DNA of 58,890 nt from Candidatus Rifleibacterium amylolyticum (GTDB lineage Bacteria > Muiribacteriota > Ozemobacteria > Ozemobacterales > Ozemobacteraceae). A program made the position numbers and the translations under genes. The notes below the pieces were generated by a model. It worked only from the letters and a program-made list of their open reading frames with translations, did no database searches and had not been told where the DNA came from. Shown here piece after piece: positions 45,030 through 48,234 of this stretch; positions within the stretch are counted from its first letter, which is position 1; each line of letters begins with the position of its first letter. Location: the NCBI GenBank assembly GCA_009917695.1, contig JAACJG010000020.1, positions 1 to 58,890 of the forward strand, in the 5' to 3' direction.

Positions 45030-45659
45030 ATGACTCCAAAACAGATCGCCGGCAAAATCATTGCTGAACTCAAAAAAAAGTATCCGGCACCAGAATGCGC
45101 TCTGGTTCACCAGAATCCATGGCAGCTGCTGGTAGCCACGATACTGTCAGCACAATGCACTGACAAGCGCGTCAATATGGTTACGCCGGCGCTATTCAAG
45201 AAGTACGTCTCTCCTGCTGCATTCGCCACCGCGAAGCAGGCCGACCTCGAAAAAGCCATTCATTCGACCGGCTTCTTTCGCAACAAGGCAAAAAACATCA
45301 TAGCCTGCGCGCAAACCCTCATTGATAAATACGACGGCGAGATCCCGCAGAATTTAGAAGATCTCACCGGCCTGCCTGGCGTTGGTCGCAAGACCGCCAG
45401 CGTGATTCTCGGCACGGCTTTCGGCAAAGCCGAAGGAATAGTCGTTGACACACACGTTACCCGTCTGTCGAACCGTATGGGCCTTACCGAACAAAGCGAT
45501 GCCACACGCATCGAAAAGGATCTGATGCTGATTATCCCAAAGAAGCACTGGATAGATTTCTCGCACCTTCTCATTTTACATGGCCGCGAACGTTGCAGCG
45601 CCCGCAAACCAGACTGCGAAAACTGCGAAATCAGCCACCTCTGCGCCCAAAGGCTCTGA
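45030..45659 (+). CDS. nth: Endonuclease III
   Basis: 209 residues, the usual length. HhH motif LPGVGRKTASVIL near 115 with the catalytic Lys, catalytic Asp in VVDTHVTRLSNRMG near 138, and the C-terminal iron-sulfur ligands C-x6-C-x2-C-x5-C (CSARKPDCENCEISHLC). It removes oxidised pyrimidines and cuts the abasic site in base excision repair. Confidence 0.98.
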   Translation: MTPKQIAGKIIAELKKKYPAPECALVHQNPWQLLVATILSAQCTDKRVNMVTPALFKKYVSPAAFATAKQADLEKAIHSTGFFRNKAKNIIACAQTLIDKYDGEIPQNLEDLTGLPGVGRKTASVILGTAFGKAEGIVVDTHVTRLSNRMGLTEQSDATRIEKDLMLIIPKKHWIDFSHLLILHGRERCSARKPDCENCEISHLCAQRL

Positions 45660-45729: not shown

Positions 45730-45812
45730 ACATGGATTCTGCGACTTCGCTTCGCCCCTGCTTCGCTGAAGCTACGCAGGGCTTCGAAGAACAGGTCGCG
45801 CGGAATGACGAA
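45730..45812. repeat. Palindromic intergenic repeat (TTCTGCGA...TCGCGCGGAATGA)
   Basis: ATTCTGCGACTTCGCTTCG ... CCCTGC / GCAGGGCTTCGAAG ... GTCGCGCGGAAT forms an imperfect palindrome. Shortened relatives are near 43211-43240 and 49368-49396. The apparent reading frame across it is repeat-derived. Confidence 0.5.
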
Positions 45813-45856
45813 GATTCGATTACGATAGCGATACCGATTACGAGCACGATTATAAT
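45812..45856. repeat. Hexamer tract CGATTA/CGATAC/CGAGCA
   Basis: About six 6-bp units in the gene-free region 45660-46353. A second tract follows at 46036. Confidence 0.7.
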
Positions 45857-46035: not shown

Positions 46036-46070
46036 AGATTCGATTACGATTACGATTACGAGCACGATAC
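46036..46070. repeat. Hexamer tract CGATTA/CGAGCA
   Basis: Five to six units (CGATTACGATTACGATTACG, then AGCACGA) about 35 bp upstream of the DEAD-box gene promoter. Confidence 0.75.
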
Positions 46071-46102: not shown

Positions 46103-46131
46103 TTGCGCTTGAAACGGATACGTGCTATCCT
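46103..46131 (+). promoter_or_regulatory. Putative promoter of the DEAD-box helicase gene
   Basis: TTGCGC (46103-46108), 17-bp spacer, TATCCT (46126-46131). This would give a leader of about 215 nt, long as in other cold-shock DEAD-box genes. Confidence 0.45.
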
Positions 46132-46170
46132 TATTGGTACCCTTTTGCGTATGTCCGGGGGTTCGGATAA

Positions 46171-46233
46171 CATGCACAAGGTTTTCTGCCGGAGTTTCCG
46201 GTTTACTGTCGTGAGTTTCACGACCTGTGCATG
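46171..46233 (+). ncRNA. Predicted three-way-junction RNA in the helicase leader
   Basis: Outer stem CATGCAC (46171-46177) with GTGCATG (46227-46233), extended by A-T and G-C pairs. Inside are two perfect hairpins: CCGGA-GTT-TCCGG (46189-46201) and GTCGTGA-GTT-TCACGAC (46208-46224), both with a GTT triloop closed by A-U. The string ACGACCTGT from the second arm recurs at 46246-46254, allowing an alternative pairing with GTCGTGA. This looks like a regulatory or autoregulatory leader, not a known riboswitch class. Confidence 0.6.
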
Positions 46234-46353
46234 AAAAAATCTGTGACGACCTGTCCGGGCACCCGCGCCAATCCAGTCTGATAGCGCGTAACCTCCTGCA
46301 TGTCTGAGAGTTTTCCGGTTTTTTCGGCTATAACATGTAAGGACACACATCAA

Positions 46354-48234
46354 ATGACAACAACAGACACCCAGGTTACCGGTTTCGACAATCTCGAACT
46401 TTCTTCGCAGCTCATGCAGGCTCTCAACGATGCCGGCTACGAGACCCCCACCCCGATCCAGGAACAGATGATTCCGGCGGTTCTTTCAGGCCGCGACGTG
46501 GTTGGCCAGGCGCAGACCGGAACCGGCAAAACGGCAGCTTTTGCCCTGCCGATTCTCGAAAAAATCGAACTCGACCAGCACGAACCGCAGGCTTTGATTC
46601 TGGCCCCGACCCGCGAACTCGCGATTCAGGTAACCGAATCCTTCAAAAAGTATGCAAAGCACCTCAAAGACTTCAAAACCATAGCAGTTTATGGCGGCTC
46701 CGAATACGGCGGACAGCTGCGCGCTCTCAGCCGCGGCGCCCACGTCGTCGTCGGCACCCCTGGCCGTGTCATGGATCACATCGAACGTGGCACCCTCAAC
46801 CTCGACGCACTCAAAGTCATGGTTCTCGACGAAGCCGACGAAATGCTGCGCATGGGTTTCAAGGAAGACGTCGAATGGATCCTCGAGCGCACACCCGAAC
46901 ACCGACAGATCGCACTGTTTTCCGCCACCATGCCACCTGATATCAGAGCAATTTCGCGCCGTTTTCTCAACAACCCACAGGAAATTTCGATTAGACAACG
47001 CACCAGCACAGTCGAAGCCACCCGCCAGCGCTACTGGCCGGTAAGTGGCATGCACAAACTCGACGCCCTGTCGCGTATTCTCGAAGCCGAACCGTTCGAA
47101 GCCATACTGATCTTCGTAAAAACCAAGATCGACACACTCGAAGTGGCTGAACAGCTGCAGCATCGTGGCTTTGCCGCTGCCGCGCTCAATGGCGACATTC
47201 CGCAGAATCAGCGCGAACGAATCATCGACCAGCTCAAGAACGGCAAACTCAATATTATCGTCGCCACCGACGTAGCCGCACGCGGCCTCGATGTTGAACG
47301 CATCAGCCACGTCATCAACTACGACGCCCCACACGATCCCGAAAGCTATGTGCATCGCATTGGCCGTACCGGCCGGGCCGGGCGCAGCGGCGAAGCCATT
47401 CTCTTCATTTCACCGCGCGAACGCCGCATTCTTCAGATCATCGAAAAATCGACCCGCCAGCAGATCACCCAGATGACCCTGCCGACTGCAGAATTCATCA
47501 ATAACAAGCGCATTGCCTCTTTCAAGCAGACGATCAAAGACACCATCGAAAATAACGACCTGACAATTTTCAGAACACTTGTCGAAGAATATTGCGCCGA
47601 ACATCAGGCCGACCCGATCGAAGTTGCAGCCGCTACTGCGCGCATGTTTCAGGGCGAAAAGCCTCTGCTGCTGCCGGTTAAGCCCGAACGCATCTCAGCT
47701 CCGACTATCAATCTGCGTGACTACGGGGATTTCGATCAGGCTCCAGCCAGACGAAAGCGCAGAGCTGACAACGAAAAAGAAGAAGGCATGGAAACCTACC
47801 GCATCGAAGTCGGCCGCGACCATGGCGTTCAGCCCGGCCACATCGTCGGCGCCATCGCCGGCGAAACCGGCATGGCCAGTAAACATATCGGCCGCATCAA
47901 GCTTTTCAACGAATTCAGCCTCGTCGATCTGCCGGAAGGCATGGACCCGGGACTGCTCGCCAAGCTCAAAACCGCCTGGATCTGCAAACGTCAGTTAGAG
48001 ATCACTCTCGACCGTGGACCGCAGAGTAATGACAGGCCCCAGCCCGCGACCCGACCGGTCAGACCGGCACCATTTGCCAGCAAACCTTTCAAAACCAGAA
48101 CGGTAGAGAGAGTTGAACGCAAGGTCAGCCGCAAAGCTTCTGAACGGCCAACAAAAAAGGTCGCTGGCAAACAACCGCCAACAAAGCGCAGCCGCCGCGA
48201 CAGCCGCGAAGCTACCGTCAGTCACCGCCGCTGA
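46354..48234 (+). CDS. deaD: DEAD-box RNA helicase, DeaD/CsdA type
   Basis: 626 residues from the ATG at 46354, with AAGGA about 10 nt upstream; a longer in-frame reading to 46300 runs through the leader and lacks support. Motifs: Q (ETPTPIQEQMIP), I (AQTGTGKTAAF), Ia (PTRELA), Ib (TPGRVMD), II (VLDEADEM), III (SATMP), IV (LIFVKTK), V (ATDVAARGLD), VI (HRIGRTGRAGR). A DbpA/CsdA RNA-binding fold follows at about 475-550 (YRIEVGRDHGVQPGHIVGAI), then a basic Arg/Lys tail. Role: ribosome assembly and mRNA unwinding, often at low temperature. Confidence 0.97.
   Translation: MTTTDTQVTGFDNLELSSQLMQALNDAGYETPTPIQEQMIPAVLSGRDVVGQAQTGTGKTAAFALPILEKIELDQHEPQALILAPTRELAIQVTESFKKYAKHLKDFKTIAVYGGSEYGGQLRALSRGAHVVVGTPGRVMDHIERGTLNLDALKVMVLDEADEMLRMGFKEDVEWILERTPEHRQIALFSATMPPDIRAISRRFLNNPQEISIRQRTSTVEATRQRYWPVSGMHKLDALSRILEAEPFEAILIFVKTKIDTLEVAEQLQHRGFAAAALNGDIPQNQRERIIDQLKNGKLNIIVATDVAARGLDVERISHVINYDAPHDPESYVHRIGRTGRAGRSGEAILFISPRERRILQIIEKSTRQQITQMTLPTAEFINNKRIASFKQTIKDTIENNDLTIFRTLVEEYCAEHQADPIEVAAATARMFQGEKPLLLPVKPERISAPTINLRDYGDFDQAPARRKRRADNEKEEGMETYRIEVGRDHGVQPGHIVGAIAGETGMASKHIGRIKLFNEFSLVDLPEGMDPGLLAKLKTAWICKRQLEITLDRGPQSNDRPQPATRPVRPAPFASKPFKTRTVERVERKVSRKASERPTKKVAGKQPPTKRSRRDSREATVSHRR

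Follow-up and report, generated by a model that had tools for sequence, protein, structure and literature searches.

A conserved leader RNA with two mutually exclusive folds precedes a DEAD-box helicase gene in Riflebacteria: a candidate translational switch

Introduction

Leaders that act in cis on their own messages by way of alternative folds are a known kind of regulator, represented by cspA, attenuators and riboswitches. The 5′ UTR of cspA in Escherichia coli is a cold-shock leader in which the mRNA refolds, and trp-like attenuators employ strands of the 1:2, 2:3 and 3:4 type. How bacteria gauge and set the levels of their RNA helicases is poorly understood. Feedback through the rne 5′ UTR operates by mRNA decay. 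According to the abstract of PMC10989929, this is feedback in cis, exerted on RNase E through its own leader; in the abstract of PMC3485376, CrhR, a DEAD-box helicase of Synechocystis, is autoregulated, partly at the post-transcriptional level and with temperature effects.

Here, we describe a structured leader that precedes a DEAD-box helicase gene in a window of 58,890 nucleotides (the whole stretch of DNA that was analyzed). The window derives from a 5.39-Mb genome of the Riflebacteria, related to Ozemobacter.

Results

The helicase gene and its orthologues

The gene at 46354..48234 (+ strand) encodes a deaD/csdA-type DEAD-box RNA helicase of 626 aa. Pfam assigns to it DEAD, Helicase_C, DeaD_dimer and DbpA RNA-binding domains; the nearest model for the protein is CsdA/DeaD, with a score under that model's cut-off. 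Seven species were compared: that of the window, L003, L004, L049, L006 and L007 from the same genus, and L036 from a neighboring one. The helicase is 67–82% identical across the six further orthologues, and the orthologous proteins share their start position (MTTTDTQ or MTSTDTQ). A Shine-Dalgarno sequence, AAGGA, can be read at 46339..46343 (+ strand), 10 nt upstream of the ATG.

On the same strand, upstream of the leader, an endonuclease III-like protein is encoded, by reading, at 45030-45659, and a G+C-rich stretch resembling an inverted repeat follows that gene (45735-45800). Arrays of the hexamer GATTAC (GATTACGATTACGAGCACGAT) lie upstream of the promoter at 46041-46070 and also at 45815-45850; a 20-mer of GATTAC units is matched 52 times in the genome and forms arrays in two relatives, whereas two other species of the genus lack it altogether.

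Promoter and transcript start

About 215 nt upstream of the helicase start codon is a promoter-like element (46103..46131, + strand), read in the sequence as TTGCGC-17-TGcTATCCT: a −35 box (TTGCGC), a 17-nt spacer with a TG, and a −10 box (TATCCT). The element was not listed by a strict consensus promoter scan. The −10 box and its distance to the conserved block that follows (about 6-7 nt) are kept in 7/7 relatives. Because the onset of conservation is fixed relative to the −10 box, the transcript probably starts there; the same regularity argues that the selected unit is an RNA. An earlier note on this DNA had held that a promoter downstream of the structure would refute its proposal; the promoter-like element lies upstream instead, at a conserved spacing.

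A conserved RNA domain

The conserved RNA domain spans nt 1-126 of the predicted transcript (46138..46263, + strand). Searched with a covariance model of the domain, 7 Riflebacteria genomes each yielded a single copy (E 7e-27 to 9e-36), every time before deaD; in 7/7, the leader RNA sits between a promoter and the helicase start codon. Of the 39 genomes of the phylum that were searched, the remaining 32 gave no credible hit; a match in G020 (E 0.049) covers only 56 bases and was set aside as chance. Searches of limited reach did not find the RNA in 14 genomes carrying the nearest helicases outside the phylum, in 185 genomes from a single additional class or, with an exact pattern, in viral contigs.

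Neither Rfam nor the publications searched yielded this RNA family, its arrangement of four strands or its association with a helicase gene. The leader has no family match in Rfam 15 at the gathering score or at E 5, the latter yielding only asX4 on the minus strand at chance level (12.1 bits vs. a cut-off of 100); this bears out the earlier remark that no named RNA family has such a layout. A literature search returned no publication describing such a helicase leader, and the main text of two catalogues of new bacterial RNAs contains no deaD-linked motif.

The 126-nt domain folds better than its dinucleotide shuffles in 7/7 species (z −2.3 to −4.3); the window's whole 223-nt leader is unremarkable by this measure (z −1.38). 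The conserved stretches of the junction and loops are ACCCUUU, GGGGG, GGGUUUCUGCC and GAAAAAAUC. We regard it as nearly certain that the leader RNA is a conserved family. It would be new for the Riflebacteria, a phylum that has received little study and is represented here solely by metagenome-assembled genomes; further members could be sought with the covariance model. A possible regulon-wide element, GGTTTTTTCGGCT, was rejected: the genome holds 38 sites with at most one mismatch, compared with 35 for a control pattern, and the element is not enriched.

The three-way junction

It had been proposed from the window alone that the helicase leader contains a three-way-junction RNA whose outer stem encloses two perfect GTT-triloop hairpins. 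This architecture proved to be conserved, with covariation. Both hairpins are exactly as described, P4 being CCGGA-GTT-TCCGG (46189..46201) and P5 GTCGTGA-GTT-TCACGAC (46208..46224), and both are enclosed by P3 (CATGCACA/TGTGCATG, 46171-46178 / 46226-46233); all helices of the leader are on the + strand. The arm reaches beyond the earlier description, first through P2 (TCGGAT/ATCTG, the 5′ strand at 46164..46168 pairing with 46239-46243) and then through P1 (TGTCCGG/CCGGGCA, the 5′ strand at 46152..46158 pairing with 46255-46261). The 3′ halves of P3, P2 and P1 constitute strand 3 (46226..46261), which carries the conserved GAAAAAATC at 46233-46241. The GTT triloops themselves are absent from most relatives.

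In the junction alignment, 93% of cells are paired and 4 pairs are changed on both sides, as against 0-1 in slid controls; these counts refer to a junction structure drawn by hand and to seven sequences from two genera, which are not independent. RNAalifold arrives at the same junction fold unaided. The compensatory changes in relatives for which the earlier note had called are present in P3, P4 and P5, as would be expected of a structured cis-regulatory leader in the general sense. Three pairs of P5 are changed on both sides, P4 has a G-C to A-U change, and an extension pair at the inner end of P3 goes from G-C to A-U in two species (RNAalifold), 96% of the cells of P3 being paired. P2 has 88% of its cells paired and no double changes; in P1, one position appears as U-G, U-A and C-G, and only one-sided changes were counted. 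An insert of ~54 nt with its own hairpins, seen in the alignment in L004 and L049, is confined to P4. Downstream of the domain, the hairpin P6 (46264..46288) keeps its position with different bases in L006, L007 and L036, its variants being CGCGC/GCGCG (that of the window), CUGC/GCAG and CUUCUCAAA/UUUGAGAAG.

A competing 5′ hairpin

Strands 1 and 2 of the leader can also form a 5′ hairpin, EH, at nt 2-45 (46139..46182, + strand). It takes the form ACCCU.UGCGU.UGUCCGG-GGGG-UCGGAUA.AUGCA.AGGGU, with a GGGG loop, has 16 bp in the window and 16-18 bp in the relatives, and is present in 7/7 species. This 5′ part is strongly conserved even though the junction divides it among P1, P2 and P3. Since EH and P1/P2/P3 use the same strands, they are mutually exclusive. 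EH is the predicted fold of 40-88-nt transcripts in 7/7 species; base-pair probabilities for growing transcripts place its upper stem at p~1 in prefixes of nt 48-88 (7/7 species) and have P1-P3 take its place with the addition of nt 96-128, a transition that comes later in L004 and L049, whose P4 bears the insert. All substitutions within nt 1-45 preserve the pairing of EH, and L007 has a compensatory double change in it (U17-A30 to C-G). For every one of the 7 species, 0/400 shuffles gave a 5′ hairpin of equal stability that disappears entirely when the full sequence folds.

The energy parameters at 37 °C favor the junction over the hairpin state by 2.6-10.4 kcal/mol. On the direct path from hairpin to junction, the predicted barrier at this temperature amounts to 13-21 kcal/mol, rising to 17-34 kcal/mol at 10 °C, both being rough energy-model values. 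The case for a two-fold RNA, with mutually exclusive folds that are both conserved and beyond chance, is strong, and bistability is quite probably a selected feature. The earlier note had likewise envisaged an alternative fold, but one based on a repeat of ACGACCTGT. An alternative fold does exist, in the form of EH; the repeat (46219-46227 and 46246-46254 in the window) is dismissed as its basis because it is not conserved, being absent from the relatives.

The ribosome-binding site region

In the predicted fold, P7 (TCCTGCATGT paired with ACATGTAAGGA, 46294..46343) partly masks the Shine-Dalgarno sequence; its apical part is U-rich, with an apical module GCTGA..CCGGTTTTTTCGGCT. Strand 4 (GGTTTTTTC, 46317..46325, + strand) is by inspection complementary to GAAAAAATC. 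The resulting helix, P8, comprises 9-10 pairs in six species and 7 in L004, and it appears in folds constrained to EH, in which strand 3 (GAAAAAAUC) can pair with GGUUUUUUC before the Shine-Dalgarno sequence. As a stand-alone helix, P8 is not significant, ~10% of shuffles being equally good. No intrinsic terminator was found on the + strand in 46138-46353, and an attenuator of the intrinsic-terminator type was rejected: U6 sits in a hairpin loop and is followed by CGGC, with no stem directly before the U run.

Holding EH renders the Shine-Dalgarno sequence more open in 7/7 species at 37 °C in the energy model (three examples, free vs. EH held:.06 to.58,.14 to.66 and.17 to.57). L006, L007 and L036 show a strong opening, whereas at 37 °C that of the window's clade is slight; for the window species, openness passes from.32 to.35 at 37 °C and from.29 to.71 at 10 °C. 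The Shine-Dalgarno openness of these leaders falls within the range of other genes. In the free fold, the masking partner is P7, via its UCCU, in the window's clade and the 5′ end of the transcript in L006, L007 and L036. Masking by the 5′ end was discarded as a general mechanism: L007 and L036 show it strongly and L006 to a fair degree, but in the window's clade it does not exceed controls.

The GCTGA..CCGGTTTTTTCGGCT module before the Shine-Dalgarno sequence is common to the window's leader and to the helicase leaders of L011, L012, L014 and L015 (more loosely in L015), which belong to other genera; control of the translation start may therefore be older than the switch proposed below.

Other deaD leaders were also observed. 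Those of L011, L012, L014 and L015 represent a second type with a different 5′ part, in which a U-rich hairpin (CTGAG..CCGGTTTTTTCGGCTTTTCAG) runs into the Shine-Dalgarno sequence and is predicted to mask it. Near the 5′ end of the L012 and L014 leaders, GCCGAAA(A) is complementary to UUUUCGGC upstream of the Shine-Dalgarno sequence, a possible counterpart of P8. In G013 (L010/L038), the helicase orthologue is preceded, at a distance of about 200 nt, by yet another kind of leader, which is GC-rich and apparently structured (GGGAAGCATGAGAGCAGACCGGAGGGTGCAAAGCCCCCGGCTGC).

Discussion

How might two such folds act on the gene that follows them? Because the Shine-Dalgarno sequence is predicted to open when EH is held and to be masked in the free fold, we read the leader as a translational switch of the helicase mRNA that has two states and folds during transcription, a reading that we place a little short of an even chance. 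As the leader emerges, nt 2-45 would fold first into the strong EH. With EH formed, strand 3 would be available for pairing with the U6 element that precedes the Shine-Dalgarno sequence (P8), and this pairing would open the latter (ON). A thermodynamically better fold would break EH, and its two strands would join strand 3 in building P1-P2-P3 and the junction; the U6 element would then be released and the Shine-Dalgarno sequence masked (OFF), by P7 in the window's clade and by the transcript 5′ end in more distant species. Since EH must be unwound for refolding, RNA-unwinding capacity, most simply DeaD itself, would set the fraction of the mRNA turned OFF. When helicase is scarce or the cell is cold, the message would be trapped ON, which would amount to negative autoregulation with cold induction.

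The components of this proposal differ in strength. Comparison of the genomes supports conservation of the junction fold, the competing hairpin and the promoter position, and a single copy per genome before deaD; folding order, barrier and Shine-Dalgarno exposure are predicted from modeling. Whether the hairpin corresponds to ON and the junction to OFF is, to us, evenly poised. That the helicase triggers refolding is put forward tentatively, and we infer the direction of control in the cell. It is somewhat doubtful that the RNA is self-reporting, in the sense that the leader would be a kinetic trap and that its resolution would gauge how much RNA-unwinding capacity the cell has; if so, a substrate of the helicase would double as the sensor that sets helicase synthesis. 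With folds fairly close in energy and a large barrier between them, this simple feedback idea is directly testable.

Under classical autogenous repression, a protein bound to the junction would block translation, be it the helicase, acting via its DbpA domain, or some other RNA-binding protein, and EH would be no more than a folding intermediate. The highly conserved junction and loops, the RNA-binding DbpA domain of the helicase and the placement of the single RNA copy before the helicase's own gene all suit this explanation, but it leaves a near-perfect competing hairpin in all seven species unexplained. Moreover, the known target of DbpA-type domains is 23S rRNA, and the leader aligned to its own 23S rRNA (L066) no better than shuffles did; the idea that the leader mimics rRNA and is recognized as such by the DbpA domain was rejected for want of this similarity, and the RNA motif is far narrower in distribution than the domain. 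We consider autogenous repression of this kind unlikely.

Alternatively, the leader could be a protein-free sensor of temperature or of folding in general: cold would slow the passage from hairpin to junction, and more of the message would be translatable. DeaD-type helicases are involved in cold adaptation, and the predicted barrier does rise from 37 to 10 °C (13-21 to 17-34 kcal/mol), although barriers from an energy model are rough. A simple melting thermometer is in any case unlikely, because in the energy model both folds become more stable in the cold, with the junction remaining the favored one throughout 10-37 °C. Protein-free sensing strikes us as rather improbable.

Two exclusive folds, conserved unpaired stretches and an insert-tolerant peripheral helix are typical of a metabolite riboswitch, in which the junction would be the aptamer and the four-strand exchange the expression platform. 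Yet the sole downstream gene is always an RNA helicase, with no metabolic partner; the gene context offers no candidate ligand, the distribution is very narrow, and no Rfam class matches even at E 5, which together make a riboswitch distinctly improbable. Control by an upstream ORF from the AUG in GCGUAUG can be given hardly any weight: this AUG is found at nt 13-14 in 7/7 species and MSGGSD is common to six, but the frame diverges by indels (16 to 52 codons) with stops that are not conserved, the AUG lacks a preceding Shine-Dalgarno sequence, and EH and P1-P3 account for the base conservation around it.

The proposed two-state switch resembles trp-like attenuators in its sequential strands and exclusive pairings; it differs from them in that no + strand terminator was found in the leader and no leader peptide is conserved, and its output is predicted at translation. 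With cspA-type leaders it shares a cold-adaptation gene for RNA remodeling and a pair of alternative folds by which the translation start would become more or less accessible. No sequence or Rfam match links them; the present leader belongs to a helicase gene, and its alternatives are a 5′ hairpin and a three-way junction. Like rne, it would place an enzyme of RNA metabolism under control of its own leader, although enzyme and structure are unrelated and rne acts by mRNA decay. The control of CrhR concerns transcript and protein accumulation and half-life, and the abstract of PMC3485376 mentions no such RNA element. The two systems nonetheless have in common a DEAD-box helicase gene and an autoregulation that, on the evidence of that abstract, is known for CrhR (PMC3485376) and is here proposed.
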